Origin: a virus
Length of the DNA stretch: 35,416 nucleotides
Reading direction: 5' to 3' (one strand)
Virus record (IMG/VR): IMGVR_UViG_3300043449_000169
Location: 1 to 35,416 of that record
Position numbers and translations under genes: made by a program. The first letter of the stretch is position 1. Every line of letters begins with the position of its first letter. Below, piece after piece: positions 1 through 35,416 of the stretch. The notes under the pieces are model-generated. The model was given only the letters and a program-made list of their open reading frames with translations. It searched no databases and had not been told where the DNA came from.

Positions 1-1103
1 ACGGCAGTTACACGCGCATTGTTTGTTAGGTACAAGTTGTCTAGCATCTGACGTAAAATAGTAGACTTGGTTAGTTGCAAGTCCATTGTCCGGTCTGCTA
101 GTGACTGACCAAAGAATTTGTGCGGAATAGGAATTGGGCATACAGAGTGGAATGGTACGTAGTTGCACTCTTCGTTAGATAGGATTTCTTCGCCACCAAT
201 GATAACTCTGCGTAGTTCTAGCAAACCATTGTCGTTTGTATCAACCTTAATGTAGCACTCAAATATCTCTACCTCTTCCATAGACATATCAGATGATTGT
301 GCGTAGTCTGGTTGTTCATCACGACCAAAACGAGCTAGACGCTCCGGTGAATACTCTAATCGGTCACCGGCTGGGATAGTATCTACTACATTTTTATCGT
401 AGCCCATTGCAATCAAGTCACCACGAGCAATCATCCTACGGTGAGCTGTGAATGGTGAGTCTTCAATTGTCTTAGCACGTTTGCTAATTAGGAACTCTTC
501 TGGTGGTACATTCTCAATAGCAATACGGCTTTGGTCGTTTATCTTTTGGATTGTAATGTTGTGGGTGTTGTAAGGAATACCATCAGCACCAATTACAATG
601 TCAGTCACTTGCTTGATAATTTCCCACTCACCGGTCTGCATAATCATCGCAAGCTCGTCATCAGACAAGCCTTTGTACTTCTCTTTGATGGTATCTTTTT
701 TCTCTTCCCAATAGGCTTTAACTACACCGACCTTCTGTAGCAATGCATCCTTGAACCAGTTGTGCAAGATCAAGAAGCCATCGTTGTCTTTATAGAATAC
801 CCAGTTAGCCATGTCACTAGCCTGGTCAGCGAGTTCTTCTTCACCGTCTTTAGTAGGCTCAAAGCGCACAGCATCTTCGCATGACGTGAATACACGGATT
901 AGTTGAGGTAATGCACCATCTACGGCTTCAGCTACCTCACCGGTGACTACTTGGCTGCGACCTTCTACCTCTGTGCCGTACTTGTCACGGAAGTAGTAGT
1001 TCATGGCATCAGCACGAGCTTGAACCGTATCAGACTCTAAGTAGCCAATAGCGTTATTAATCTCGTCAGCACATAGTGCCTTTAATTCTTCTTGATTCAT
1101 CAT
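1..1103 (-). CDS. Portal protein, N-terminal part (runs off left edge)
   Basis: The portal forms the dodecameric ring at the capsid vertex through which DNA is packaged and ejected. About 367 codons are open from an ATGATG start down to base 1. The start forms an ATGA overlap with the terminase stop. The product begins MNQEELKALC and contains TGEVAEAVDGALPQLIRVF and a segment near the edge reading RQMLDNLYLTNNARVTA, which I recognise from P22-type podovirus portals. The remaining C-terminal part lies at 34739-35416. The two frames do not join directly: two bases of a codon are left at base 1, so the missing DNA should be 3n+1 bases long. P22-like portals are about 700-730 residues, so about 110-140 residues are missing. 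The family assignment is from sequence recall. Confidence 0.88.
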   Translation of the reverse strand, partial: MMNQEELKALCADEINNAIGYLESDTVQARADAMNYYFRDKYGTEVEGRSQVVTGEVAEAVDGALPQLIRVFTSCEDAVRFEPTKDGEEELADQASDMANWVFYKDNDGFLILHNWFKDALLQKVGVVKAYWEEKKDTIKEKYKGLSDDELAMIMQTGEWEIIKQVTDIVIGADGIPYNTHNITIQKINDQSRIAIENVPPEEFLISKRAKTIEDSPFTAHRRMIARGDLIAMGYDKNVVDTIPAGDRLEYSPERLARFGRDEQPDYAQSSDMSMEEVEIFECYIKVDTNDNGLLELRRVIIGGEEILSNEECNYVPFHSVCPIPIPHKFFGQSLADRTMDLQLTKSTILRQMLDNLYLTNNARVTA

Positions 1104-2368
1104 ACGACCCATGCCTTATTTTGTTGTAATGGTTTAGACCATGTTGTATCTACTTCTACTAACCCTATTGCTAAGTACCTAAACGAGTCTGCAAAGTGTG
1201 ATGACCAGTCGTGAACTGGCTTATCGTAAAACACATTCTGCTTCTCGTTAAACTCACGTCTATAGTTACGCAATGCTACTAGACCGTTCTTTGTCCGTTC
1301 CATGTCAAACCAGCATCGTGGCAGCATACGTCTAACTGCTTGAATGCCATCTGCTATAGATAGGCTTGGTGCTACTGTTACGTCTAGTCCTGCTTCCATC
1401 AACACCTCAAGTCTGCTGCGACCTGTGGTCATCTCTCTGACTCTTACATCGTGCGGAAGAATCTGCTGACCCTTGTCATAACCATTATCACGCAACCAAC
1501 TAACATAGTAATCAAGTCCGACTCCGTGGTTCTCAGTACAATCTATTAGCTGTATCTCTTTGCCGACTATTTGGGCTACCCATATACAAGTAGAATCACT
1601 TACACCTAAGTCCCAGCTACATACAAGTTTTGCTAGACCGTCTTTAGGAACTTTAGTTACTCTGTTCTCGTTGTCTGCATCCATTAGTAACTTACCGTAG
1701 TAAGCACCCTCTACTGGTGCATCAAAGCTGCACTCAAACTCTTGCTTGTACTTGTCATCGCCCATCTCGTTCTTAGCACTAGCCAACTCTTGTGGATCTA
1801 GTATGCCAGTATCACTAGCCTTAAACTCTAAGAACTTCCAACCCTCGGTGACCATTGCTCGTTCTTTAAACTCACGAAAGTGATTATTGCCCTTCGGAGT
1901 ACCAATAAACAAACAGAATCCTTTTCTGTCTGCTAGTGCCGGTCTTATAATCTCATTCCAAATCTTTGGGTCTTGGTCACCTATCTCATCTAGCACAACA
2001 CCATCAAAGTATTGTCCCCTTAAACTGTCACCATTCTCACTACCGTATAGGCTGATTCGTCTGCCCAGGAAGTCCACTCGTAGCTCTGCGATGTTTGCAG
2101 TACCACCAAGTGAGCGAGTATATTCTGTTAGGTAATCCCATGCGACCCTTTTAGCCTGTGAGTAAGTAGGTGCTATATAAGCGTACCTAGGATTCTTCTG
2201 TCCGTTCTGTAATGCAGAATGAATCAATTGCACTATAGCAGAAACAGTTTTCCCCATCCTACGATGCGCTACAGCTACTACAAAACGATTCTCTCTTACT
2301 GCCTTATGTATCTCTTTCTGTGGTAACCGAGGCTTGTAGCCTAAGTCAATCGGGTTAGTAGTTGTCAT
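1100..2368 (-). CDS. terL: Terminase large subunit
   Basis: This is the ATP-driven packaging motor and nuclease that cuts concatemers and pumps DNA through the portal. The 422-residue length is typical. The N-terminal ATPase shows Walker A HRRMGKT (35-41), Walker B VVLDE (D127, E128) and a coupling-type motif IGTPKG. The C-terminal RNase H-like nuclease shows SWDLG as the first acidic motif and HDWSSHFADSFRY near the end with the last Asp. Its start overlaps the small-subunit gene by 14 bases and its stop overlaps the portal start, so the three are probably translationally coupled. Confidence 0.95.
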   Translation of the reverse strand: MTTTNPIDLGYKPRLPQKEIHKAVRENRFVVAVAHRRMGKTVSAIVQLIHSALQNGQKNPRYAYIAPTYSQAKRVAWDYLTEYTRSLGGTANIAELRVDFLGRRISLYGSENGDSLRGQYFDGVVLDEIGDQDPKIWNEIIRPALADRKGFCLFIGTPKGNNHFREFKERAMVTEGWKFLEFKASDTGILDPQELASAKNEMGDDKYKQEFECSFDAPVEGAYYGKLLMDADNENRVTKVPKDGLAKLVCSWDLGVSDSTCIWVAQIVGKEIQLIDCTENHGVGLDYYVSWLRDNGYDKGQQILPHDVRVREMTTGRSRLEVLMEAGLDVTVAPSLSIADGIQAVRRMLPRCWFDMERTKNGLVALRNYRREFNEKQNVFYDKPVHDWSSHFADSFRYLAIGLVEVDTTWSKPLQQNKAWVV

Positions 2369-3221: not shown

Positions 3222-3713
3222 TTAATCCCTTGACTTATTATAATGGAATTCACCAAATTCTTTTAATGTAGCTAATTCATATGCTTTACTGGCAAGTTCT
3301 TTTGTTTCAAATAATCCTAAACAATATGATTTATTATTTGCCTTGTATCTAGCTCGCCACATATTTAAATGTTTTGATACACCTTTAAAGCCACTACTAT
3401 TTTGTGATGTAATTTTTCTGTTTCTGGCATTTTCAACATCATTGGCTAGTCTTAAATTATTAATTCTATTATCTGATGTGTTGCCATTAATGTGGTCAAT
3501 TTTACTTTTTGGAAATTCACCATATTTATAAAGCCATGCTAATCTATGACCAGCATATATTTTATATTTTATTTGTATTCTAATATAACCTTCATGATGA
3601 ACTGTACCAGCAACTTCTCCAACCTTGCGTTGATTATTAGATTTTAATCTAAAAAACAATCCAGTCGTTTCATCATAATTTAATAATTCTTTTAATTCAC
3701 TTTGTGTAATCAT
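3222..3713 (-). CDS. HNH homing-type endonuclease with AP2 domain
   Basis: A free-standing mobile nuclease of 163 residues. The HNH core is in the middle: HRLAWLYKYG, then KIDHINGNTSDNRINNLRLA. A C-terminal AP2-type DNA-binding domain follows, starting SSGFKGVSKHLNMWRARYK and containing ETKELASKAYELAT. This architecture is typical of phage homing endonucleases, which cut intron-less or intein-less alleles and spread by repair. It is visibly more AT-rich than its neighbours. It sits between two small packaging-region genes with its own AAGGGG ribosome binding site, consistent with a later insertion. Confidence 0.92.
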   Translation of the reverse strand: MITQSELKELLNYDETTGLFFRLKSNNQRKVGEVAGTVHHEGYIRIQIKYKIYAGHRLAWLYKYGEFPKSKIDHINGNTSDNRINNLRLANDVENARNRKITSQNSSGFKGVSKHLNMWRARYKANNKSYCLGLFETKELASKAYELATLKEFGEFHYNKSRD

Positions 3714-3723
3714 ATTAACCCCT

Positions 3724-3807
3724 TTAGTTAATAGCCTTATTGAATGTATTGGCAGGATAGTAAGGTTCTATCTTTTCGGTCGCTAAACCTAGCCATACAA
3801 ATTTAAT
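3724..3807 (-). CDS. Possible 27-residue peptide, non-canonical start
   Basis: Between the HNH gene and the 3803-4183 gene there is an open frame that reads like protein (KFVWLGLATEKIEPYYP, then ANTFNKAIN). It has no ATG, GTG or TTG; the only candidate start is ATT, overlapping the upstream stop. It could be a coupled gene with a rare start, or a relic left by the HNH insertion. In another frame there is an 18-residue ATG frame with no visible merit. Treat as unproven. Confidence 0.25.
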   Translation of the reverse strand: MKFVWLGLATEKIEPYYPANTFNKAIN

Positions 3808-4183
3808 CTGTCATTGGATTTTCAAATTCTTTTTTCTCCCAAACACTACATAGTCTACTGTTATGGCAAATTAATTCAAGTTTTACGCAATATCCTCTCT
3901 GAGCTTGACCATCATACAGGTCGTACTTGTTTAGTGGAATGGATTCCATAGCCTCAAACATTTCGGGAGTATTGTCGTAGTATTCGCAGTTACCGCATCG
4001 TTGACGCTTGGCTTCTGCCGGTGTGATTCGGAACATCTTAGCCATCTTTGCCCAGTATTCTGTGTTAGGCAAACTTGGGTTCATAGCTCCAAGAGAATAG
4101 TTATCAATGGCATTCTTGGTGTTGTCAGCAATCTCTTTGGTTGTGCCAATAGTAGTTTTTGTGTCTAACAAACCTTTTGCCAT
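3803..4183 (-). CDS. Cysteine-containing conserved phage protein
   Basis: A 126-residue protein of unknown function and first gene of the minus-strand packaging operon. The middle has RCGNCEYYDN. The C-terminal third has RGYCVKLELICHNSRLC, then SVWEKK, giving five cysteines able to bind metal or an Fe-S cluster. I recall a similar CxxC...C...C layout in aquatic-phage proteins, without a known role. I chose the second ATG: AGGGA then lies 6 bases upstream, whereas it abuts the first ATG at 4189. It is preceded by a structured leader and a good promoter. Confidence 0.7.
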   Translation of the reverse strand: MAKGLLDTKTTIGTTKEIADNTKNAIDNYSLGAMNPSLPNTEYWAKMAKMFRITPAEAKRQRCGNCEYYDNTPEMFEAMESIPLNKYDLYDGQAQRGYCVKLELICHNSRLCSVWEKKEFENPMTD

Positions 4184-4328
4184 AGTCATTCCCTAAAAAA
4201 TAGGAGGTTCTCGCAACTAGACTACCTCGGAGTCTACCCTATCACGTCTGAGGGGCTGTGATTGCTTTCTAGCGATGTACTGTCGCTGGAATAAAAAAGT
4301 AATGCAAAATCGCACTACTATAAATCGT
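4184..4328 (-). ncRNA. Structured 5' leader of packaging operon (candidate cis-RNA)
   Basis: About 145 untranslated bases between a predicted transcription start and the first packaging gene. Three successive hairpins are visible, in minus-strand order: AGCGA/TCGCT (4283-4287 with 4271-4275), ATCAC/GTGAT (4258-4262 with 4241-4245) and TAGACT/AGTCTA (4231-4236 with 4218-4223). The second and third loops carry CCTC and GAGG, which could kiss. An outer helix ATAGG/CCTAT (4238-4242 with 4200-4204) encloses the third hairpin and is followed by a run of U just before the AGGGA ribosome binding site. This outer helix competes with the second hairpin. I could not match it to a known riboswitch class. 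Confidence 0.45.
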
Positions 4329-4334
4329 TACGTG

Positions 4335-4363
4335 ACTTTACCATATTAATCAATCGTGGTCAA
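4335..4363 (-). promoter_or_regulatory. Promoter for packaging operon (sigma70-like)
   Basis: Minus-strand TTGACC, a 17-base spacer and TAAAGT. The -35 matches the consensus at 5 of 6 positions and the -10 at 4 of 6, with ideal spacing. It points into the packaging block and would start transcription near 4328. It lies back to back with the pqqA promoter. Confidence 0.55.
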
Positions 4364-4389
4364 TGTATCACTTTTAATGGTTTTAACTA

Positions 4390-4418
4390 TTGTTAGTGTC
4401 TAACATTAAGCACATTAT
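4390..4418 (+). promoter_or_regulatory. Promoter of pqqA with overlapping inverted repeat
   Basis: Plus-strand TTGTTA, 17 bases, CATTAT; each hexamer matches consensus at 4 of 6. A perfect inverted repeat TGTTAG-tgt-CTAACA covers 4391-4405, overlapping the -35. This is where a repressor would block the promoter. The cognate regulator is unknown; the mini XRE protein at 8134-8310 is one candidate. Confidence 0.4.
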
Positions 4419-4424
4419 TACATA

Positions 4425-4440
4425 CAAGCAATATTGCTTG
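4425..4440. promoter_or_regulatory. Perfect 16-base palindrome in pqqA leader
   Basis: CAAGCAATATTGCTTG is its own reverse complement. It lies just downstream of the predicted pqqA transcription start and 10 bases before the AAGGA ribosome binding site. A gap-free palindrome of this length is a typical dimeric-regulator operator; as RNA it would fold only with an opened centre. Confidence 0.5.
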
Positions 4441-4462
4441 GTACAGATTAAGGACTAATATC

Positions 4463-4534
4463 ATGTGGACTACACCAGCAGCTACACAAATGCGTTTTGG
4501 CTTTGAAGTTACTATGTACGTAATGAACAAATAA
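4463..4534 (+). CDS. pqqA: PqqA, precursor peptide of pyrroloquinoline quinone
   Basis: Encodes the 23-residue ribosomal peptide from which PQQ is made. In known PqqA, the radical SAM enzyme PqqE with PqqD links a Glu and a Tyr; proteases and PqqB/PqqC then finish the cofactor. Here the peptide starts MWTTPAATQMRFG and continues with FEVTMY, placing Glu15 and Tyr19 at the same positions as in the 23-residue Klebsiella PqqA as I recall it. Trp2, Pro5, Ala6, Arg11, Gly13, Val16, Thr17 and Asn22 also match. AAGGA lies 8 bases before the ATG. No other pqq gene is present, so host PqqB-F would be needed. It is the only plus-strand gene in this half of the genome and looks like an auxiliary metabolic gene. 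Confidence 0.88.
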   Translation: MWTTPAATQMRFGFEVTMYVMNK

Positions 4535-4551
4535 TATATACATTGTATATA
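4535..4551. repeat. 17-base inverted repeat directly after pqqA
   Basis: TATATACA-T-TGTATATA starts at the first base after the pqqA stop. The arms are 8 bases with a one-base centre. It is too AT-rich and lacks a U-tract, so it is a poor intrinsic terminator and more likely a protein-binding site. A related but imperfect TATAT/TTGTATA pattern occurs in the XRE-gene promoter (8340-8369). Confidence 0.4.
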
Positions 4552-4556
4552 CCTAG

Positions 4557-4805
4557 TTATGGAGTTACATTTTTCATGATGTCTTCATGACTGGGTTCTT
4601 GAGAGTATTCAAACTCTATCAGCATCTCAATAAAATGCATCGCCTTCTTTAAGTCCTCCAGACCGTTCTTATTCCTATGCCTACAAAGGTACTTAATAGC
4701 AGTAGCCTCTAGGTACGGAATGTTATTGTAATAGCAAAACTTTGCTGGCTGTATTGCAAAGCCTTTGTAGTGGTTGCCACCGTGTTGGATGTCTAGTACG
4801 CTCAT
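4557..4805 (-). CDS. DUF3310 family protein
   Basis: An 82-residue small phage protein. The signature is visible throughout: IQHGGNHYKGFAIQPAKFCY, then YLEATAIKYLCRHRNKNG and LEDLKKAMHFIEMLIEFE. DUF3310 proteins are widespread in phages and sometimes annotated as nucleotide-kinase related, but the function is not settled. Its start overlaps the upstream stop by one base (TAATG), so it belongs to the minus-strand operon above it. Its end converges on pqqA. Confidence 0.85.
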   Translation of the reverse strand: MSVLDIQHGGNHYKGFAIQPAKFCYYNNIPYLEATAIKYLCRHRNKNGLEDLKKAMHFIEMLIEFEYSQEPSHEDIMKNVTP

Positions 4806-9250: not shown

Positions 9251-10081
9251 TTAATCACCACAGAAACATTCTATTGAGTCATCATCTAGCAATGATAACT
9301 GACTAGCATTGTTTTTTATTAATTGTGAATAACTTGGTCTATCTATTCTAAATAACGCTCCAGTTCCAGGACCGCTAATATCAAATGCTAACTTTTCCAT
9401 GTTTGCCCACCAAATTGCTTTTTCTGGATTCATTTGAATAATAGATTTAATCTTTCCTTCAGCTTTTAAATAACATAAATCACAATTACCTAATGGCGTA
9501 ACTCCATTAATGTTAGGTAACTTAAGATCAAACTTTTGCTGTTTCCAAAAATTACCAACAATCTCTTTTGTTACTTCATCATTAGCTAATGGGCAAACTG
9601 GTTTTTCTCCTTTGCTGTCACCCTTTAATCTTATGGCTCGGTGCATTTCATCAGCTCTTATGCCAACAAACGATTGCCATTCTGTCCATCCAGTAGATTT
9701 AATGTATCTTGATACGGCTCTAATCTTTAATTCTGCTGTGCAAGATTTATTTCTAGGATTAGGAACTATTCCACGCTTTCTAATTAAAGCCTCAAAAGGC
9801 TCACCATTACGACTAGCTGTTGTGTAATCAACGACCGCAAACTTAATCTCTGCATCACGATACTCAAGCCATACAATAGGTACATTCCAATTTATAGAGC
9901 AATCATGCACAAACTTTAATGTGGCTTCTTCTTCTTTTCCTGTGTTAGCAAAACAAACAATGGCTTCTGAAGGCAATTTACCGCCATGAGCTTCCAATAC
10001 TTTCCACAACATATAGGCTGATGTTCTGCCACCACTAAAACTGATTATTGTTGGCTCTGTAATAAAATATGGATTACGCAT
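9251..10081 (-). CDS. PAPS-reductase-like PP-loop protein
   Basis: 276 residues of the adenine nucleotide alpha-hydrolase superfamily. The PP-loop SGGRTSAYM is at residues 16-24, followed by VCFANTGKEE and IVWLEYRDAE. Cysteines occur in NKSCTAELK, GNCDLCYLK and the terminal ECFCG, and may bind a cluster as in DndC-type relatives. Phage members are often annotated as phosphoadenosine phosphosulfate reductase, but sulfate reduction is unlikely. A role in nucleic-acid modification next to the methylases and DpdA-like gene is an inference. It overlaps the upstream gene by 8 bases. Confidence 0.8.
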   Translation of the reverse strand: MRNPYFITEPTIISFSGGRTSAYMLWKVLEAHGGKLPSEAIVCFANTGKEEEATLKFVHDCSINWNVPIVWLEYRDAEIKFAVVDYTTASRNGEPFEALIRKRGIVPNPRNKSCTAELKIRAVSRYIKSTGWTEWQSFVGIRADEMHRAIRLKGDSKGEKPVCPLANDEVTKEIVGNFWKQQKFDLKLPNINGVTPLGNCDLCYLKAEGKIKSIIQMNPEKAIWWANMEKLAFDISGPGTGALFRIDRPSYSQLIKNNASQLSLLDDDSIECFCGD

Positions 10082-10544
10082 AATTTTCCCCTAGCACTTC
10101 TCTTGCAGCAGTAACTGAAGTTTCCGGAAAGTTTTGTGGATTTTTTAAAATACGTTTAGCCCAGGCATGGTAGTCTGTTTTTGGTTTTAATCGCTCATGT
10201 ACATATAAAGCCAACTTATCAGCGTGAGCCTTATTGCTTTCATGGTCTACTGGTGCAGGTAGTGCCTTAAAGTCTTGTATGTTACTTGTTACGCAATGCT
10301 TTAAAAACTCATCGCAATTAGGTGCATATTGGTATTTGGCTTCTAATCCAGCTTTAATACGCTCTGCACTAATGCCGGCAAGTTCTGATGACCAAGTAGC
10401 CTTTGCGTTTGCAATACCAACATCTTCACCAGCATCGTTAACTTGACCTATCTTGAACTTATCAAAAAAGTTATTACCAAAACGACCATGTAGTCGCATA
10501 AAAATACGTTCAACCCATTCTGCTGGCAAATTAAAATTCTGCAT
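10074..10544 (-). CDS. Helicase-loader-like replication protein (lambda P type)
   Basis: 156 residues from an ATG preceded by GGAG. Features are LPAEWVERIFMRLHGRFGNN, a central LAGISAERIKAGLEAKYQ, then APNCDEFLKHC. This W...L...I..GL...(P)..EF...C pattern resembles lambda P-like replication proteins, which recruit the host DnaB helicase to the origin. It directly follows the replication initiation gene with a 14-base overlap, the O-P order of lambdoid phages. The similarity is moderate. Confidence 0.6.
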   Translation of the reverse strand: MQNFNLPAEWVERIFMRLHGRFGNNFFDKFKIGQVNDAGEDVGIANAKATWSSELAGISAERIKAGLEAKYQYAPNCDEFLKHCVTSNIQDFKALPAPVDHESNKAHADKLALYVHERLKPKTDYHAWAKRILKNPQNFPETSVTAAREVLGENYA

Positions 10545-11289
10545 GATTATCTCCAACTAATTTTATGTGAGCAGTTTGTTCTGCAATGTACTGTGGTTTA
10601 AATACTGATAGTGCTGCATTTAATGTTGATGCTTGCTTATCTATACGTCTAGCCTCTTGCCTTCTTACCCAATTGCGCCATGTAGCAAACCAATCTGTCT
10701 TAACTGCAGCAGAACCACTTTTGCTAATCCAATAGTCTTTGAATGTATCAGCTACAGATTGAACATTAAGTTCTGGTCGTTCTGTTTGGCAGAATTTTAT
10801 ATATTCTTCAGGTATTACCCAGTCTTGTGAAAGGCGAGAGCCTTTAGTAGTTTCTTTCTTTTCTTTCTTATCTATTCTAATCTCTTCTGTTCTCTTCTCT
10901 TCTCTTACCTCGGACATTCTAGGGACACTATCGGGAGTTACAAGTGAGGCTGATAACCTCTTGTTATCTCTAATAATTTGTTGCGTGTACTCATCAGCTC
11001 TAGTTGCCATCTTTAAACAGGTAATAATTCCCTTTGTATTTTCAAATAAGCCAATTTCAACCATAAATGTCATAATGTGCTGCACTAATTCTGTGCTTAA
11101 TTTAAAATCATCAGCAATTAATTCAGCATCATGTTCTAGTTCAAAAGTTAGATTATGCTTTTCAACATTGCGAGCTATTAACTCTAAGCAATACCAATAT
11201 ATGCCGTAGCCTTGTGCGCCATACTTTAATCTTAGTTTTTTTAACTTAGCATCATTACTTGCGTCTGAATCGTGTTTAAACCATTTCAT
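10531..11289 (-). CDS. Replication initiation protein (DUF4373-like)
   Basis: 252 residues from the ATG behind GGAG. The N-terminal domain, MKWFKHDSDASNDAKLKKLR, then YGAQGYGIYWYCLELIAR, matches the DUF4373-type winged helix of phage and plasmid initiators. The linker is highly charged (REEKRTEEIRIDKKEKKE). The C-terminal part, ADTFKDYWISKSGSAAVKTD and FATWRNWVRRQE, resembles DnaT/O-type C-terminal segments. It likely binds the phage origin and hands over to the downstream loader. It is preceded by an unusual leader with alternative hairpins. Confidence 0.75.
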   Translation of the reverse strand: MKWFKHDSDASNDAKLKKLRLKYGAQGYGIYWYCLELIARNVEKHNLTFELEHDAELIADDFKLSTELVQHIMTFMVEIGLFENTKGIITCLKMATRADEYTQQIIRDNKRLSASLVTPDSVPRMSEVREEKRTEEIRIDKKEKKETTKGSRLSQDWVIPEEYIKFCQTERPELNVQSVADTFKDYWISKSGSAAVKTDWFATWRNWVRRQEARRIDKQASTLNAALSVFKPQYIAEQTAHIKLVGDNHAEF

Positions 11290-11297
11290 TTGTTTTC

Positions 11298-11403
11298 TCC
11301 AAAAAAAAACCTTAGACAACACTCTCATCTTTTTTAGGGATGTTGACGGACTGGCGGATACCAGCAGAGTGTTGACTAAGGTTTATCCGATGTTCACCGT
11401 CAA
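11298..11403 (-). promoter_or_regulatory. Attenuator-like leader upstream of replication genes
   Basis: On the minus strand, arms at 11366-11384 and 11307-11325 form a 19-position helix with a single mismatch. It closes a 40-base loop and runs into nine Us immediately before the GGAG ribosome binding site of the replication gene. Two other helices, TTGACGG/CCGTCAA (11397-11403 with 11343-11349) and CGGATA/TATCCG (11384-11389 with 11355-11360), cross the first in order and cannot form with it except as a pseudoknot. This is the layout of a terminator/antiterminator switch. It could instead be an origin structure or the terminator of the VRR-NUC transcript. Confidence 0.55.
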
Positions 11404-11422
11404 GTGATAGCGTTACTTTAAA

Positions 11423-11782
11423 CTAACTTTTACCTTCTTGCAAGTAATTTGTTATTGCAGTTTTAGCTTCTTCAAAACCAAAGCATACAACCGGCAAGTA
11501 GTTCATTGAATTAGCTGCTGCCATAAACTCTTTCTGGCTATCTGACACTTTTCCAGACTTTGCCTTCATCTCAATAAACATTCCGTGATACTTACTATTA
11601 GGAATCATTAAGAATAGGTCGCTGACTCCGGCAAGCACTCCTTCTGCCTTTAAATTGACTGCCGTAACTATGTGCCGTGATCCACCGTTAGGAATTGCCC
11701 ATAGGTGATACTTGTATTGCTTGTATTGCATTCTGAACCAGGTGATTAGCATGACCTGCTCTTGATGTTCTGATACTTTCAT
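11423..11782 (-). CDS. VRR-NUC domain nuclease
   Basis: A 119-residue stand-alone VRR-NUC (PD-D/EXK superfamily) protein. Visible motifs are SEHQEQVMLITWFRMQY with the first Glu, AIPNGGSRH, LAGVSDLFLM with the catalytic Asp, and FIEMKAKSGKVSDSQKEF with the E-x-K core. Such phage enzymes are thought to process branched or replicating DNA. It is the first minus-strand gene after the divergent promoter region. Confidence 0.93.
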   Translation of the reverse strand: MKVSEHQEQVMLITWFRMQYKQYKYHLWAIPNGGSRHIVTAVNLKAEGVLAGVSDLFLMIPNSKYHGMFIEMKAKSGKVSDSQKEFMAAANSMNYLPVVCFGFEEAKTAITNYLQEGKS

Positions 11783-11797
11783 AATTATTTTTACTTT

Positions 11798-11895
11798 ATG
11801 TATAAAAAAGTATTGCGTTATTAAATTCTATGAATTAATATTATACATCAGTTAATAAAAAACAACTGACTTAATAGAAATTATGGAGAAATAAA
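11798..11895 (+). promoter_or_regulatory. Promoter-leader unit, copy A
   Basis: Holds TTGCGT (11813-11818), 17 bases, TAATAT (11836-11841), then a hairpin TCAGTT/AACTGA (11848-11853 with 11864-11869, 10-base loop), the shared TTAATAGAAA and a GGAG ribosome binding site. It is about 80 percent identical over its first 52 bases to copy B at 12336-12434. The opposite strand has a perfect TATAAT (11840-11845), so the same DNA may also drive the VRR-NUC gene divergently. Confidence 0.6.
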
Positions 11896-12336
11896 ATGGC
11901 AAAAAAATTAAAATTTAATTGTGAATGTTGTGGTGCTGAATTTACTAGGTACGAATCACTATGTATATCTAGAGGAGGAGTAGCAAGATATTGTAATCCA
12001 GATTGCCAAACAAAACATATGAAAAAAGAAAATTCAACATCTTGGAAGGGTGGAGAATATATTTCTAAAGAATCTGGAGATGTTCTTGTTCTTATTGAAA
12101 GTAAAGATACAAAAAATAATAAAAACAATATTTATAGGGCATTAAAGAGAATTGTTGCTGAGAATGCACTTGGTCGTAAATTACATAGGTCAGAATGTGT
12201 TATTCATGTTGATGGAAATAAATTAAATAATGATGTTAGTAATTTGTTTATATGTGGAATTGGTTTAACTAGAAGCATTTTTGCATATAAAACACAACCA
12301 TTACCAATTAAAGGTAATTTAGATACATATAAATAA
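11896..12336 (+). CDS. HNH endonuclease with N-terminal zinc finger
   Basis: 146 residues, rich in Lys and Asn and more AT-rich than its neighbours. The N-terminus has CECCGAEF and later RYCNPDCQTKH, a four-Cys zinc finger. The C-terminal half has HRSECVIHVDGNKLNNDVSN, then LFICG, an HNH-type core (family pattern V-x-H-x-DGNKLNND-x-x-NL). It probably acts as a mobile homing endonuclease. It sits between two copies of the same promoter-leader unit, as if its insertion duplicated or brought along the leader. Confidence 0.75.
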   Translation: MAKKLKFNCECCGAEFTRYESLCISRGGVARYCNPDCQTKHMKKENSTSWKGGEYISKESGDVLVLIESKDTKNNKNNIYRALKRIVAENALGRKLHRSECVIHVDGNKLNNDVSNLFICGIGLTRSIFAYKTQPLPIKGNLDTYK

Positions 12337-12434
12337 TGTATAAATAATACTTGCATTATTAATTTAGATGGATTAATATTACACATCGCAGCAACAAAGC
12401 GATTAATTTAATAGAAACGGTAAGGAGAAATATA
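12336..12434 (+). promoter_or_regulatory. Promoter-leader unit, copy B
   Basis: TTGCAT (12351-12356), 17 bases, TAATAT (12374-12379), then a hairpin ATCGC/GCGAT (12385-12389 with 12399-12403, 9-base loop), TTAATAGAAA and an AAGGAG ribosome binding site. The hairpin lies where copy A has one but with an unrelated stem sequence, so the fold rather than the sequence appears conserved. It drives the small-gene, Erf and SSB run. Confidence 0.6.
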
Positions 12435-12773
12435 ATGGACTATAACGCAGATTGGTACCCAGGTTGCACTAACGATCCAGATTGGCAAGACCGTGGCAAT
12501 CATAATGACAATACAGAAGAGCGTATTTATGACCACATCACAGAAACATATCAAAAATCAGCAGACGATGTATTTTCAATCGTATTAGATTACGCTGACC
12601 AGCAAGCTATTGCTCAGACTCTCAAAGCAATGGTTATTGCATACGACAATTCCTTAAACGCAGGTAGAAAAGTAGACCGTGAGCAGAGCGCACAAGATTT
12701 CGTTGTGTTTGCCAAATCATTTGCTAACGTATGTATATCTGCTATTGAAAAAGAGGCAGAACAAAATGCGTGA
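12435..12773 (+). CDS. Hypothetical acidic protein
   Basis: 112 residues, first gene of the plus-strand early block. It starts MDYNADWYPGCTNDPDWQ; the central and C-terminal parts are helical (SADDVFSIVLDYADQQAIAQ and TLKAMVIAYDN). It is acidic overall. No family was recognised; position suggests an early-expressed host-takeover or DNA-metabolism role (inference). AAGGAG precedes the ATG. Confidence 0.75.
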   Translation: MDYNADWYPGCTNDPDWQDRGNHNDNTEERIYDHITETYQKSADDVFSIVLDYADQQAIAQTLKAMVIAYDNSLNAGRKVDREQSAQDFVVFAKSFANVCISAIEKEAEQNA

Positions 12774-12882
12774 TTACAAAAACTACAAACCTAAAACAGA
12801 CTTTACACCAGTTATAGAAGGCTTATGCTTTGTGAGTGTAGTCTTATTATCAATTTTCTTATATTTATTATTGGCGGTGTAA
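12766..12882 (+). CDS. Small membrane protein
   Basis: 38 residues: a polar N-terminus MRDYKNYKPKTDFTPVIEG followed by one hydrophobic segment LCFVSVVLLSIFLYLLLAV to the end. The ATG overlaps the upstream stop by 8 bases. The longer frame start at 12679 lies inside the upstream gene and is not supported. Probably a C-tail-anchored inner-membrane peptide of unknown role. Confidence 0.6.
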   Translation: MRDYKNYKPKTDFTPVIEGLCFVSVVLLSIFLYLLLAV

Positions 12883-12883
12883 T

Positions 12884-13075
12884 ATGTCAGTTTCTTACGA
12901 ACAAGAGCGCAAACAGCATATTGCTGACCTGCAAGCGCAGTTTACAGAGTATTTATATAACAATTACAGTATAGGAAATGGCGAACAGCTTATTAATATA
13001 CTTGAGCAAGGTGATGCACTTGAGTCTTTCTTAGACCTTATGGGCTTACCAGAAGACACAGAGATTGAAATTTAA
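12884..13075 (+). CDS. Hypothetical small acidic protein
   Basis: 63 residues starting one base after the upstream stop: MSVSYEQERKQHIADLQAQF, then EYLYNNYSIGNGEQLINILE and LMGLPEDTEIEI. Amphipathic helical, acidic. No family recognised. The following erf gene has its ribosome binding site at this gene's stop. Confidence 0.65.
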   Translation: MSVSYEQERKQHIADLQAQFTEYLYNNYSIGNGEQLINILEQGDALESFLDLMGLPEDTEIEI

Positions 13076-13085
13076 GGAGAATGAT

Positions 13086-13688
13086 ATGTCAGTTTATAAA
13101 AAATTAAACAATGCTAGATTAGAGTTACAAAACACCAAACTAAGCAAGTCAGGTCACAACAAGTTTGCCGGCTATAAATACTTTGAACTGGGTGACTTCT
13201 TGCCAACCATCAACAACATATTTAGTAATGCTGGCTTATGTGGTGTGGTTAGCTTTGCGTCAGACTTGGCAACATTGACCATTACAGATGTTGATGATGG
13301 CTCACAAATTTTTATCACCAGCCCTATGGCAGATGCTAATTTAAAAGGTTGTCATCCTATTCAAAATCTAGGTGCAGTAGAAACATACACTCGTAGATAT
13401 TTATGGGTTACAGCGATGGAAATCGTTGAGCATGACGCACTTGATGCTACTACTGGAGCAGACAAGCCAGTAATCCCAGAACTCAAGTCACCAGAGTACA
13501 GCAAGGAAGAGATGGACATATTGCACTCATTAGCTGAAGGCTTTACTGCATTCGTAGCTGACAACAATCATGCTGAAGCCAAAGTAACATGGGATGCACT
13601 TGATAACGAACAGAAGTCTGTAATGTGGGGTTTGTTGGATAGCAAGACCAGGTCATCATACAAAAAATATTCTAGTACAAATAAATAG
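13086..13688 (+). CDS. erf: Erf-family single-strand annealing recombinase
   Basis: 200 residues from the ATG behind AAGGAG. The N-terminal core has the Erf features: SKSGHNKFAGYKYFELGDFL, then PMADANLKGCHPIQNLGAVE and TYTRRYLWVTAMEIVEHDAL. Erf proteins anneal complementary single strands and circularise or recombine phage DNA; P22 Erf is the type member. The C-terminal 60 residues form an acidic helical tail. SSB (14182-14562) and NinB (6673-7041) complete a recombination set. Confidence 0.93.
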   Translation: MSVYKKLNNARLELQNTKLSKSGHNKFAGYKYFELGDFLPTINNIFSNAGLCGVVSFASDLATLTITDVDDGSQIFITSPMADANLKGCHPIQNLGAVETYTRRYLWVTAMEIVEHDALDATTGADKPVIPELKSPEYSKEEMDILHSLAEGFTAFVADNNHAEAKVTWDALDNEQKSVMWGLLDSKTRSSYKKYSSTNK

Positions 13689-13697
13689 GAGATAGTC

Positions 13698-13850
13698 ATG
13701 AATAAAATTTTAATAGCTTTAGTATTATTAGTAGTATCAGTAACAGCTTACGCAGCTTGCTCTACTCACACAATCATGTCTGGCGGTAGAATTGTAACCT
13801 GCACTACTTGTTGCGATAGTCGTGGCAACTGCAACACAAATTGCTTTTAA
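13698..13850 (+). CDS. Secreted six-cysteine mini-protein
   Basis: 50 residues with a clear signal peptide: Lys3, a hydrophobic stretch ILIALVLLVVSVTAYA and a likely cleavage after AYA. The mature 30 residues carry six cysteines (C-x13-C-x2-CC-x5-C-x3-C), able to form three disulfides in the periplasm. TATGTCTGGCGG encodes the IMSGGR turn. AGGAG lies 7 bases before the ATG. I recall similar tiny Cys-rich secreted proteins in aquatic phages but know no function. Confidence 0.75.
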   Translation: MNKILIALVLLVVSVTAYAACSTHTIMSGGRIVTCTTCCDSRGNCNTNCF

Positions 13851-13860
13851 GGTAGAGCAT

Positions 13861-13998
13861 ATGGTTATCAAGTCACTATATGGCTTAACACCACCCAGCC
13901 AAAAAGAGGTGGCAGACCGTGATGCTAAAATAGCTTTGGCTATTAAGAATATGGGTCACAAATATTTACTTTCAAAACCAATGCCTAGAATTAGATAA
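13861..13998 (+). CDS. Hypothetical 45-residue basic protein
   Basis: MVIKSLYGLTPPSQKEVADR followed by AKIALAIKNMGHKYLL and a basic tail ending MPRIR. It is in the run of small early genes, 10 bases after the Cys-rich gene; its stop overlaps the next ATG (TAATG). No family recognised. Confidence 0.65.
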   Translation: MVIKSLYGLTPPSQKEVADRDAKIALAIKNMGHKYLLSKPMPRIR

Positions 13999-14171
13999 TG
14001 GAAAAAATTAATTTAACATTTTATGTAAATGTTTTTAAAAGCAGAAATGGAAATTATTTTTGTTTTGGAAATTTTAAATCTATTGAAACTGCTGAAATTG
14101 GTGCAACAAGATATAAAACTACTAACCCAGCATCAACTTTTATTAAAACAGAACTAATCAACATCAACTAA
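13998..14171 (+). CDS. Hypothetical 57-residue protein
   Basis: Starts in a TAATG overlap with the preceding gene. The sequence NLTFYVNVFKSRNGNYFCFG, then SIETAEIGATRYKTTNPAST, predicts a small beta-rich domain with one helix (AP2-like topology is possible). It is AT-rich. Translationally coupled to its neighbour; function unknown. Confidence 0.6.
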   Translation: MEKINLTFYVNVFKSRNGNYFCFGNFKSIETAEIGATRYKTTNPASTFIKTELININ

Positions 14172-14181
14172 AGGAACTAAA

Positions 14182-14562
14182 ATGAATAATCTAAACGCAA
14201 CAGGTCGCTTAGGACAAGATGCAAAATTAAGTTACACAGCAAACCAAGATGCAATCTGCAACTTTTCGCTATCATTGACTGCCGGTTATGGTGATAAAGC
14301 CACGACCACATGGTTAAACTGCAACTTATGGGGAAAACGTGCAGAAATACTTGCGCCAATGCTTCTAAAAGGCACACAAATAGGTGTTACAGGCGAGATT
14401 AGCCTCCGCCCTTACAAAGCCAAGGATGGTACAGAGAAATCAAGTCTAGAGTGTCGTGTTGGTGATGTAACATTGCTAGGTGGCAAATCTGAAGGTGGTG
14501 CAACTAAACCAGCAGCAAAGGCTGACCCAATGGAAGAAGTAGAATCAGATATACCATTCTAG
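14182..14562 (+). CDS. ssb: Single-stranded DNA-binding protein
   Basis: A 126-residue OB-fold SSB. N-terminal NNLNATGRLGQDAKLSYTAN, then FSLSLTAGYGDKATTTWLNC and NLWGKRAE are family signatures. A flexible linker leads to the acidic tip ESDIPF, the conserved tail through which SSBs recruit partner proteins. Protects single-stranded phage DNA during replication and Erf-mediated annealing. Confidence 0.95.
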   Translation: MNNLNATGRLGQDAKLSYTANQDAICNFSLSLTAGYGDKATTTWLNCNLWGKRAEILAPMLLKGTQIGVTGEISLRPYKAKDGTEKSSLECRVGDVTLLGGKSEGGATKPAAKADPMEEVESDIPF

Positions 14563-14634
14563 CGTATAGGTCGTGTTATGAAAGTTAAATGGCACGACCT
14601 TCTTTTGAAACCAATAAATTTATGGAGTTTACCT

Positions 14635-14889
14635 ATGTCTAGCAATCCTGTAACTGGAGATAGCCTAGTAAGTAAGGTTGGCAATAAAGAGCAGCAAGAG
14701 AAGTATGCTGATGGCTTTGATCGTATCTTTCGTAAAAAGAAAGACCCAATCTGTAATGTGTGTGGCAAGACTTTAAGCACTACAAAAGAATGTGCATGGA
14801 CTGGTTGCCAGCTTAACTGGGATGAAGACCGTGTAGACATTGTTGGTCAAAACGGTAACGATGGGAGTCACTATGAAAATAGCAATTGA
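14635..14889 (+). CDS. Small zinc-binding phage protein
   Basis: 84 residues from the ATG behind GGAG; an upstream ATG at 14578 lacks a ribosome binding site. It starts MSSNPVTGDSLVSKVGNKEQ and has YADGFDRIFRKKK, a pattern I recognise from small phage proteins of unknown function. The second half has CNVCGK...CAWTGC, a four-Cys zinc site. It ends 17 bases inside the next gene. Confidence 0.7.
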   Translation: MSSNPVTGDSLVSKVGNKEQQEKYADGFDRIFRKKKDPICNVCGKTLSTTKECAWTGCQLNWDEDRVDIVGQNGNDGSHYENSN

Positions 14890-17377: not shown

Positions 17378-18424
17378 TTACTTAGTTTTCTTTTTTTCTT
17401 TCTTGGGTACTTTTTTGTTTTCTATATCAAGTAACCCAGATGCTACTGGAACACCTACACCTACACCAGCTAGTATGTCTGCTTCATTGCGTCTAAATGG
17501 GTCAAAGGCTGCAAAGCGAGAACGTATGTTTTTAGGGTCTAATATCATTTGTGTATTTACTGCTCTGCCCATAGAACCTTCATCTTTAAATAAATTAATA
17601 GAATCTATGTTGTCATTTTTTAATTGAGTAGTAATTTTTTCTTTTGAAACTTTAGCTAACTTATTAACCATCCCATTGTTGCCAGTTATTTCAGAAATTT
17701 GCCTCCATAGTTCTGCTTGATTTGGGTGAACATTACCTCTACCATAAGAAAACATTTCATCACCAATTTTGTCTATTTCTGCTGCACCAAGTTTATCTGC
17801 ATTTTTAACATTATCCATTGCAATTCTAATATCTGGATATTGATTAAAATATCCTCGTAGACCATCTCTAGTATTAAAACTTAATGAATTTCCCTCTCTA
17901 GTCATAAGTGGCATTTGCATTTGATTGTCAATTTTTATACCAACTGGTTTTGCACTATCTTTAACAAAGACTGAATAAGGTGTTTGCTCATCAGATGCAG
18001 CAGATACGGCACGATTAGGATTAAACCCTTCCAATGAAATTCCATTAAATCCATTTACATCAGTTTCGTGCCATTTATTATTATTAAACCCTAAAGCCTT
18101 TGCCCTATCCATAGCCGTATTACTTGCTGGCAATCCTAGACCACCTTCTGCTACTGGCAATGCTGCATTACGCTGTGCTGTTAGTTGTTTTACTTCAAAC
18201 TCTGTTAAAGGAAACTTGCTACCTGCTGCTTTAGTAATTCCCATAGGAGCAAATGCCATAGCAACATCTAAGGCTTCATTAGGCATAACTGGCGATGGCT
18301 TGTTTAATTCTTGCAAGGCTGTCATGTCACCAGACAATAGACCACCTAGTGCATTACGGTATGGTGCGCCTTTAGCGTACTGTGCTTTTGCTGCTTCAGT
18401 AATGTAATCCAATAATCCTGCCAT
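17378..18424 (-). CDS. Virion-associated protein, possible ADP-ribosyltransferase-like
   Basis: 348 residues, last gene of the minus-strand virion block, facing the plus-strand block. It starts MAGLLDYITEA, like the ejection-type protein at 21326-22729. The middle has KWHETDVNGFNGISLEGFNP, and the C-terminal part has MILDPKNIRSRFAAFDPFRR. The latter is a phrase I associate with ART-like segments of phage polyvalent or internal virion proteins. The C-terminus is very lysine-rich. It could be an injected effector; no catalytic triad was established. Confidence 0.5.
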   Translation of the reverse strand: MAGLLDYITEAAKAQYAKGAPYRNALGGLLSGDMTALQELNKPSPVMPNEALDVAMAFAPMGITKAAGSKFPLTEFEVKQLTAQRNAALPVAEGGLGLPASNTAMDRAKALGFNNNKWHETDVNGFNGISLEGFNPNRAVSAASDEQTPYSVFVKDSAKPVGIKIDNQMQMPLMTREGNSLSFNTRDGLRGYFNQYPDIRIAMDNVKNADKLGAAEIDKIGDEMFSYGRGNVHPNQAELWRQISEITGNNGMVNKLAKVSKEKITTQLKNDNIDSINLFKDEGSMGRAVNTQMILDPKNIRSRFAAFDPFRRNEADILAGVGVGVPVASGLLDIENKKVPKKEKKKTK

Positions 18425-18427
18425 AAC

Positions 18428-18877
18428 TTATCCTTGTTTATTAAATAATGCTGCTTCGTCTTTACGTCTATTGTCTAAGCCTTTTAAGACCTTGCCACCA
18501 GCTTTGTTATACTTGAGTAGACTTTTGACAGCAGCTTCATAATCGCCACGGTTAATCTTTTGACGGAGTGAGCTTCGCTGAAGTGTGCCAAGACCAAGAT
18601 TAAAGCTGAAGCTAACAAGAGCATCAAACATACCCTGTGTAAGTTTTGCAGATATATAGCGTTCAACCCCACGCTCAAATCTGTAGACATCCTTAACCAG
18701 TAATGCATTGACTTCCTCTATCTTAAATATACGATTCCAGCTATCTGGCAGTATAGCACCGTCACCAATAAGATGACCATACCCAACAGTCCAGAGTCCA
18801 GCAGGACAACGATAAGGTTTAAGTTTAAGTCCTTCATAGCGTTTTATAAGATCCAAGCCACGTTGCGATGTTTTCAT
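18428..18877 (-). CDS. Endolysin, GH24 muramidase (T4/P22 lysozyme type)
   Basis: Cleaves peptidoglycan glycan strands at lysis. 149 residues with KRYEGLKLKPYRCPAGLWTV, then GYGH. Spacing fits the E-8aa-D/C-5aa-T catalytic motif: Glu15, Cys24, Thr30, the cysteine version as in some P22-like enzymes. FDALVSFSFNLG and the C-terminal DNRRKDEAALF are further GH24 features. No signal or SAR segment at the N-terminus, so export depends on the holin encoded just upstream (4-base overlap). Confidence 0.95.
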   Translation of the reverse strand: MKTSQRGLDLIKRYEGLKLKPYRCPAGLWTVGYGHLIGDGAILPDSWNRIFKIEEVNALLVKDVYRFERGVERYISAKLTQGMFDALVSFSFNLGLGTLQRSSLRQKINRGDYEAAVKSLLKYNKAGGKVLKGLDNRRKDEAALFNKQG

Positions 18878-32188: not shown

Positions 32189-33133
32189 TTAAGTTAAGTC
32201 AGCAATGATACCGTGTGCTGCTTCGTTCTTAACTTCCAATGTGTACTCTACTAAAAGTTGAGTAACATCAGCGTCACCAGTTTTAGCAAGCTCATTAGTT
32301 TGGAATGGACGTAGGTAAGCTACGGCTGCCATTTCAGGATCTAGTAAGAATGCTACGTCATCTGAGTCTGTGTTAGGAATGAAACGGTTAGGTACGATAG
32401 AGATAGTACCAAAGTCAGAAACATAAACGTCTGCTGCACCGATAATTGATGCTTGAACATTACCTGGTACATCTTTGTAACGAGTAGCAATACCGGCAAA
32501 TGTAGATGCAACTACTTTTTGTGCTGGAGTTACCATCAAGATTGTTGGTGAACCACCGTTAGTGTAAGTAGATTGGATTACTGTGTTCAAGATAGTGCTA
32601 GTGAAAGCACGGTCTGTACCAGTAGTACGTGCAGTAGTACCAGAAGCACCAGCAGAACCACCTGAACCGTTAGAAGTGTTTGAAGCTAACCATGTTTGTA
32701 GACCACCCAAAACACGTGCAGTAGAAGCATCACCAGTAGCTGCAATTTGGTTGCTTAACAAGATAGCTTCCATGTCGCGTTTGATTTCGGCAGAAGCCTT
32801 AGCCAATTGGTATGCTTTTTCTGATTTACGACCAGCTTTGTTTACAGTTTCCAAAGTACCAGAAATCTTAACAGTTTTTTGTGAGATTTGAGTACGGTTA
32901 CCGATACGAGTAGTTGGTGACATTGTAGCGTCAGATGCAGTAGCACCCTCAACAACAGCGTTTGATACGTTTACAGAAGCCAAGCTGTCTTTTTGCCATT
33001 CGTGATAAACAGCAGTAGCTTTGGTTTTACCAACAGATGTCATGAATGGAGTATCTGTAGGTGAGATGTTGTAAATAACATCAGCTAAATCTTCACGATT
33101 GCCGATGGACTGATAGGTTTGATATGTTGCCAT
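32189..33133 (-). CDS. Major capsid protein (SU10/DUF5309 type)
   Basis: 314 residues. N-terminal YQTYQSIGNREDLADVIYNI, then SPTDTPFMTSVGKTKAT, and middle KISGTLETVNKAGRKSEKAY are typical of the DUF5309 / SU10 major capsid family (HK97 fold). The C-terminal part has PNRFIPNTDSDDVAFLLDPE and LAKTGDADVTQLLVEYTLEV. Preceded by the scaffold gene and followed by a GC-rich hairpin. Forms the icosahedral shell. Confidence 0.92.
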   Translation of the reverse strand: MATYQTYQSIGNREDLADVIYNISPTDTPFMTSVGKTKATAVYHEWQKDSLASVNVSNAVVEGATASDATMSPTTRIGNRTQISQKTVKISGTLETVNKAGRKSEKAYQLAKASAEIKRDMEAILLSNQIAATGDASTARVLGGLQTWLASNTSNGSGGSAGASGTTARTTGTDRAFTSTILNTVIQSTYTNGGSPTILMVTPAQKVVASTFAGIATRYKDVPGNVQASIIGAADVYVSDFGTISIVPNRFIPNTDSDDVAFLLDPEMAAVAYLRPFQTNELAKTGDADVTQLLVEYTLEVKNEAAHGIIADLT

Positions 33134-34738: not shown

Positions 34739-35416
34739 TTAATCTTCATAATCTACTATATCTTGTGACTCTGCCTTTATACCACTTTTTACCATTTCAT
34801 TCAAGCTAGTAATAGCTGACATGATTGCGTTAAGTTGCTCTGTCTGTAGTTTACCGTCTGTTGCCTGTGTCTTCATCTCTAGTTCCATTTGTTTCAATTG
34901 CAGCTCAGCTTCCTTGATACGATATTCACCCTCAAGTTGCATTTGTTTTTGTTGGAACTCTAATTCTTTACGAGCGTTATCTACCTGCATTTGCTCACGG
35001 TCTAGTTGTAGCTTGGCTTGAGAAGTCTGTGCAGATAATTGAGCCTTCTGTTCTTCTACCTTGGCATATAACTGTGCTGCCTCAGACGTTGGATCAGCAG
35101 GTGGCTGTGATGCCTGTTGCATTATTTGCTGCTCAACCTCTGGTGTAATGTCATTAATGAATGATGTTGTGTCTTTAAAGCCAGCCATCTCAATCATGCG
35201 ACCAAGTGTGCTGCGGTATTGCGTTACAGTCACCAATGGGTTGTTAGCACCGTACTTGCCGATGATTTCTTCCTGTTTAGCCATAATCATTTGCAACATA
35301 GCAATCTGCTCTTGGCGGTTACCGTTACCCAATCCTACGTTGATTGACACATCATATAGGTCAGACCACTCACGAGGGTCATAAGATACCCATTTGCCAC
35401 GCATACGGATTGTCTT
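34739..35416 (-). CDS. Portal protein, C-terminal part (runs off right edge)
   Basis: 225 residues open from the right edge to the stop. The frame begins before the first ATG of the window (KTIRMRGKWVSYDPREW), so the true start is elsewhere: the N-terminal part is at 1-1103. KWVSYDPREWSDLYDVSINV and GLGNGNRQEQIAMLQMIMAK are characteristic of this portal family. The last third is a long Gln/Lys/Glu coiled coil (QAKLQLDREQMQVDNARKEL), the barrel or crown part. Confidence 0.88.
   Translation of the reverse strand, partial: KTIRMRGKWVSYDPREWSDLYDVSINVGLGNGNRQEQIAMLQMIMAKQEEIIGKYGANNPLVTVTQYRSTLGRMIEMAGFKDTTSFINDITPEVEQQIMQQASQPPADPTSEAAQLYAKVEEQKAQLSAQTSQAKLQLDREQMQVDNARKELEFQQKQMQLEGEYRIKEAELQLKQMELEMKTQATDGKLQTEQLNAIMSAITSLNEMVKSGIKAESQDIVDYED

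Follow-up and report, generated by a model that had tools for sequence, protein, structure and literature searches.

The viral record IMGVR_UViG_3300043449_000169, analysed over its full 35,416 nucleotides (hereafter the window), carries a gene for PqqA, the precursor peptide of PQQ. We consider it likely that a Methylophilaceae phage here carries a functional pqqA of the host type, which would feed the consumed PQQ substrate peptide to the host PqqB-E proteins during infection. A first-pass annotation made from the sequence alone had proposed both the gene and its role. The phage-borne PqqA is supported by protein profiles, by the phage nature of the contig and by the methylotrophic hosts of other pqqA-bearing phages, while the metabolic effect, more PQQ and sustained methanol oxidation, is one that we continue to infer.

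Identification of the pqqA gene

The gene comprises an ATG, 22 further codons and a TAA, and is translated as MWTTPAATQMRFGFEVTMYVMNK. Both curated PqqA profiles place this product above their cut-offs, with 35.0 bits for Pfam PF08042 (E=1.4e-8, cut-off 21.1) and 35.1 bits for the NCBIfam equivalog TIGR02107 (E=8.4e-9, cut-off 20). With a model of viral PqqA the window ORF scores 60.6 bits, whereas nothing above 13.7 arose when the whole window was shuffled 100 times with dinucleotides preserved. By the curated cut-offs the gene is a genuine pqqA, correctly identified in the first-pass annotation, for which such a profile search had been suggested; the coordinates and residues named there (W2, P5-A6, R11, G13, E15-V-T and Y19) all agree with the translation. 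The peptide has the Glu-x3-Tyr pair, at E15 and Y19.

The peptide differs from the Methylophilaceae host PqqA MWTTPAATEMRFGFEVTMYVMNK by a single change at position 9 (E9Q), and the nearest host genes, of the Methylotenera type, differ from the window gene at 3 of 66 nucleotides. Such closeness suggests that the window gene probably comes from a metabolic gene of a host, and it is probably functional. Glutamine at position 9 was found only in the window; at the 303 other viral sites listed this residue is E (259), D (33) or one of K, V, N and T.

Table 1. Positions of pqqA and associated features in the window and in the L559 segment of the large-phage fragment G018
Feature	Position	Strand	Basis or remark
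Window
Large terminase subunit, by which the record is recognised as a tailed phage	1100..2368	-	closest to Methylophilales phage Venkman, 63.5%
Divergent neighbour heading the block that runs to terminase	3803..4189	-	no family match
Intergenic leader between gene 3803-4189 and pqqA; presumed divergent promoter region	4190..4462	+	sequence; upstream sequences of relatives
Shine-Dalgarno-like AAGGA, 8 nt before ATG	4450..4454	+	sequence
pqqA, PQQ precursor peptide gene, 23 codons	4463..4534	+	passes both curated profiles (PF08042, TIGR02107); chance control
Codons Glu15-Val-Thr-Met-Tyr19	4505..4519	+	translation; Glu15/Tyr19 correspond to Glu16/Tyr20 of Methylorubrum, which PqqE cross-links (PMC10906245)
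Terminator-like hairpins immediately downstream of the pqqA stop codon, extending over the end of the converging DUF3310 gene	4535..4595	+	fold z=-4.56
DUF3310 protein, convergent neighbour; last gene of the leftward methyltransferase/replication block	4557..4805	-	Pfam PF11753
Major capsid protein	32189..33133	-	76% identical to MW202481 (Manatee Spring phage, also with pqqA)
L559 (G018:C1:24000-43900)
PQQ methanol/ethanol dehydrogenase	9990-11864		608 bits
Formate dehydrogenase alpha subunit	11944-14784		885 bits
pqqA	about 17888		adjoins the SoxYZ-like carrier
Quinoprotein-dehydrogenase-associated SoxYZ-like carrier	18071-18790

Genomic context of pqqA

The record is a bona fide tailed-phage genome, in which pqqA is surrounded by genes for terminase, portal, major capsid protein, SU10-type adaptor, a DNA-ejection-like protein, endolysin, SSB, Erf and DNA methyltransferases (Table 1). 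The second terminase match is to MW202481 (63.1%). As the first-pass annotation had described, the gene is encoded on the plus strand and has a minus-strand block on either side. It converges on the DUF3310 gene and diverges from the gene at 3803-4189. Neither PqqE nor PQQ alcohol dehydrogenases were matched in the window, and nothing convincing was found for PqqB, PqqC or PqqD. Tyrosine integrase was not detected in the record by PF00589, a search that does not extend to serine integrases or missing ends.

Several other features of the record were noted. Of the portal family, only the C-terminal portion is represented in the ORF at the window end (34739-35404), and the portal gene is therefore probably split across the record ends, window 1-1100 being the other end, as in a circular or permuted genome. 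Periodic repeats of 45 nt at 29769-30314 lie inside a 630-aa gene (29298-31190, minus strand) and probably represent a tail-fibre repeat region. Another gene of the auxiliary type, similar to phosphoadenosine phosphosulfate reductase (PHROG 424), occupies 9251-10081 on the minus strand. The Rfam int-alpA RNA matches 3734-3798 on the minus strand (40.8 bits, gathering threshold 35.8), just upstream of an HNH endonuclease gene (3222-3713, minus strand) and not of an integrase.

The pqqA leader contains a perfect 16-bp palindrome, CAAGCAATATTGCTTG, at 4425-4440. Its arms, AAGCAA and TTGCTT, are kept in three relatives, and other relatives have a different inverted repeat, GTACAC...GTGTAC, in the same place; the leader palindrome is a possible operator. 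A promoter scan near pqqA yielded no confident call, its matches being no more frequent than expected by chance. Folding of the leader before the Shine-Dalgarno site is not specially stable (mean z -1.0), and for this reason an RNA switch, considered as a candidate, is not claimed. Hairpins after the stop codon, on the other hand, occur at most pqqA loci, with a mean z of -2.8 in phages and -3.7 in hosts. Since they are general in both, the gene on the phage resembles a further orphan unit of pqqA.

Conservation of the locus in close relatives

In 23 IMG/VR contigs whose TerL is at least 87% identical to that of the window, pqqA is found antisense to terL, 1.2-3.1 kb upstream. This answers the proposal of the first-pass annotation to look for the gene at the same locus in related contigs; frameshifts and loss of Glu15 or Tyr19, which it had named as signs against its reading, are absent from the copies found in close relatives, and variants such as MWTSPAATEHRIGFEVTAYIMTR keep both residues. 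Among the 16 relatives for which 3.6 kb or more of the upstream region is available, the gene is at this place in 12 and elsewhere in one more; it was not seen in the remaining three (90-91% TerL identity). Two leader types occur upstream of pqqA in this group, which points to apparent exchange of the gene together with its leader. Relatives near 68% TerL identity have no pqqA in the sequence examined, perhaps due to other hosts.

Cultured methylophages

A tblastn search of 50,697 phage records with the peptide identified P19250A, Venkman, MEP301, MEP401, MEP402, four Melnitz genomes and MW202481. All pqqA-bearing phages with a known host infect methanol-oxidising Methylophilales. The place of pqqA has no annotated feature in P19250A, MEP301, MEP401, MEP402 and Venkman, and a "hypothetical protein" is called on the opposite strand in the Melnitz genomes and MW202481. 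The gene, which the first-pass annotation had called easily missed, is thus unannotated or mis-stranded in nine genomes of cultured methylophages. It also goes unmentioned in the publications describing MEP301, MEP401, Venkman and Melnitz. MEP431-434, MG-MtP1 and other Methylophilales phages listed in the taxonomy, which may or may not be in the collection, were not among the matches, and our claim is therefore that nine cultured genomes were found with pqqA, not that all have it.

Nothing else in the collection matched apart from a mislabelled contig: in "Acinetobacter phage MD-2021a" (CAKLQF020000010.1), rejected as a pqqA phage, the gene stands beside ppk, pqqB and pqqC and the sequence looks like a bacterial chromosome. 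The Acinetobacter PqqA used as query returned identical phage records; therefore, at this sensitivity, such a gene was not detected in the phages of other PQQ producers in the collection, for example the many Pseudomonas phages.

Distribution and constraint in viral contigs

A degenerate DNA pattern had at least 120 matches in IMG/VR, and two sub-patterns, fitting 8 and 10 of the 120 matches listed, again had at least 120 each. If the first 120 are representative, this roughly suggests at least about 1,400-1,800 IMG/VR contigs with pqqA, redundant ones included. At least 304 distinct sites were collected, and 303 of the 304 listed are intact, that is, have a start codon at most three codons from the Trp and a stop soon after the Tyr. 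An SD-like site precedes 301 of the 303 intact sites among the matches listed. The listed 304 sites encode 119 different peptides, and no pqqB-E was detected in the flanking sequence retrieved. The genes next to pqqA in the first IMG/VR set form 113 clusters, of which 72 have a single member, and every strand arrangement occurs; pqqA is also present in virus records of 87-266 kb. Two records, IMGVR_UViG_3300012348_000046 (G101) and IMGVR_UViG_3300048670_001567 (G105), have two copies each. Viral pqqA thus usually appears as a stand-alone unit with its own SD site and post-stop hairpin, like the orphan copies of the hosts.

Synonymous divergence among viral copies is strong (pS about 0.6), and pN/pS is about 0.20, or about 0.30 over the codons left free by the search pattern. 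W2, P5, R11, G13, Glu15, Tyr19 and the C-terminal tail are retained; the Glu15-Tyr19 motif was built into the DNA pattern, and independent support for it comes from the profile-found copies in TerL relatives, which keep both residues. Viral pqqA is under purifying selection in many unrelated phage contexts, a signal that could be partly inherited from the hosts if phages often re-acquire the gene, since phage and host copies are closely alike.

pqqA in the host family

In coastal waters and lakes, methanol oxidisers of the family Methylophilaceae (OM43, Methylopumilus, Methylotenera) are abundant. A pqqA pattern of the Methylophilaceae type matched GTDB records named Methylophilaceae or unclassified MAGs. 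All 60 sampled Methylophilaceae genomes have pqqA, 58 of them in at least two copies (range 1-12, median 4.5), and full-length PqqE is present, usually once, in nine of the ten genomes sampled for it; these partner-enzyme counts refer to the inferred host family of the window phage. Multi-copy pqqA with the other pqq genes in single copy has been described for the family (PMC4109929), and the five pqqA copies of another methylotroph differ in expression (PMC9851590). Host copies often lie outside the pqqABCDE operon, which itself was seen in L334.

At seven OM43-type loci (L145, L148, L207, L217, L222, L240 and L329) pqqA forms a tandem pair about 200 bp apart, with the ends YVCN[KR] and YVMNK. 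A contig binned in a bacterial MAG (L223, CAIYXB010000030.1) is 86% identical to P19250A over 322 bp around pqqA and is probably a phage contig. Since small MAG contigs with a "host" pqqA may be phage, only whole genomes were used in counting the host copies.

PQQ supply and methanol oxidation

Methanol dehydrogenase needs PQQ. PqqF/G, PqqB and PqqC turn the cross-linked PqqA product into PQQ, so that each PQQ uses up one PqqA. The cross-link joins the Glu and Tyr of PqqA and is made by PqqE with PqqD, the three forming a PqqA-PqqD-PqqE complex (PMC10906245). The most abundant OM43 transcript is xoxF (PMC5120137). In Acetobacter, over-expression of pqqAB raised PQQ by 29% and that of the complete operon eightfold (PMC7936290); the effect of pqqAB alone being so much smaller, precursor supply matters but need not be the main bottleneck. 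The hosts already own several pqqA copies, so that any gain from one more is a presumed one.

A 72-kb virus record, IMGVR_UViG_3300025120_009955 (G018; loci L046 and L559-L561), encodes ribonucleotide reductase and groEL and has strong matches to phage protein families. Besides pqqA, with the SoxYZ-like carrier gene beside it, the record has genes for methanol and formate dehydrogenases (Table 1), a possible phage methanol-oxidation cassette in a large-phage fragment. Neither terminase nor capsid was found among the G018 proteins tested, so that it is taken as viral from its IMG/VR classification and the phage families. The association is a strong one, and the predicted gene set fits phage support of methanol oxidation.

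Proposed role and alternatives

We propose that the phage would express pqqA during infection, that its peptide would enter the host PqqD/PqqE complex, and that the added gene dose may maintain the supply of PQQ and methanol dehydrogenase under failing host transcription or a rising demand for energy. The likeness of phage and host copies, often 0-4 of 66 nucleotides apart, and the lack of pqqA in some close relatives would also fit a neutral passenger, host DNA with pqqA being repeatedly gained and lost without benefit to the phage. This is unlikely, as the gene is retained both in 35-kb genomes and in very different phages of up to 266 kb, nearly all listed viral copies are intact and constrained at the codon level, and their leaders and hairpins are phage-specific; moreover, similarity between window and host extends over no more than the gene (77 nt), so that flanking host DNA was not carried along. 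Extremely improbable is a pqqA-like core for integration into host pqqA genes: hosts do offer several copies, and short genes such as tRNAs serve some phages as attachment sites, but the window lacks a tyrosine integrase domain, the entire gene is kept with its own start and hairpin, and a pS of about 0.6 is at odds with the DNA identity that an att core needs.

PQQ has users in bacteria besides methanol oxidation, and the cofactor supplied might serve these instead, for example other PQQ dehydrogenases or redox protection. We hold this to be improbable, given that the known hosts are methanol oxidisers and that methanol dehydrogenase co-occurs with pqqA on phages (G018; PMC7678222). An unproductive analogue could, through the PqqA-PqqD-PqqE complex (PMC10906245), block PQQ synthesis in the host and shut down methanol oxidation. 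In such a decoy one would expect the reactive pair to have been lost, whereas Glu15 and Tyr19 are kept together with W2, P5, R11, G13 and the C-terminal tail, and G018 adds a methanol dehydrogenase rather than removing one; a blocking function is thus highly improbable. Supply of precursor for PQQ synthesis remains our preferred reading, and pqqA is probably a common methylophage means of sustaining methanol oxidation, because nine cultured genomes and hundreds of related viral contigs carry it.

Relation to known systems

Cellular Methylophilaceae PqqA (PF08042, TIGR02107) shares with the window copy its length, the invariant residues and the architecture of orphan copies, with their own SD and post-stop hairpin, and differs in one residue, Q for E at position 9; in contrast to it, the window copy is on a phage, away from pqqBCDE. 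PqqA on a virus is already known. The Lake Baikal viral population VP_266 is reported to encode it, VP_139 and VP_266 are reported to encode methanol dehydrogenase, and the same functional proposal was made (PMC7678222, 2020); pqqA is also in a list of viral genes from reservoir sediment (PMC13188868). Like the window phage, VP_266 is a Methylophilaceae phage with PqqA proposed to support methanol dehydrogenase; unlike it, VP_266 is T4-like and its population also has methanol dehydrogenase, whereas pqqA alone was found in the 35-kb genome of the window phage. Beyond VP_266, the gene is located here in cultured methylophages that lack its annotation. Within the literature searched, which excluded most subscription journals and all preprints, neither the wide distribution of the gene among methylophages nor its occurrence in cultured models appears to have been reported.

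Host metabolic genes kept by phages of one metabolic guild are exemplified by the auxiliary genes psbA of cyanophages and pmoC of methanotroph phages. Phage pqqA resembles them in this respect but encodes a consumed substrate peptide and not an enzyme, which makes it a different lever from the enzyme genes usual in phage reports. Gene callers that apply a length limit do not see the gene, and it can serve as a host-guild marker for uncultured phages. Existing pairs, namely P19250A with its LD28-type host, Venkman and Melnitz with H5P1, and MEP301 with HTCC2181, allow a direct test.

On balance, although less firmly than for the window phage itself, we favour the broader view that pqqA is a near-universal and systematically missed hallmark of Methylophilaceae phages from 35 kb to 266 kb. 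One 72-bp gene, by adding copies of a consumed precursor, would then determine how much of a host redox cofactor is supplied in the course of infection, and some large phages may add methanol and formate dehydrogenases to it.
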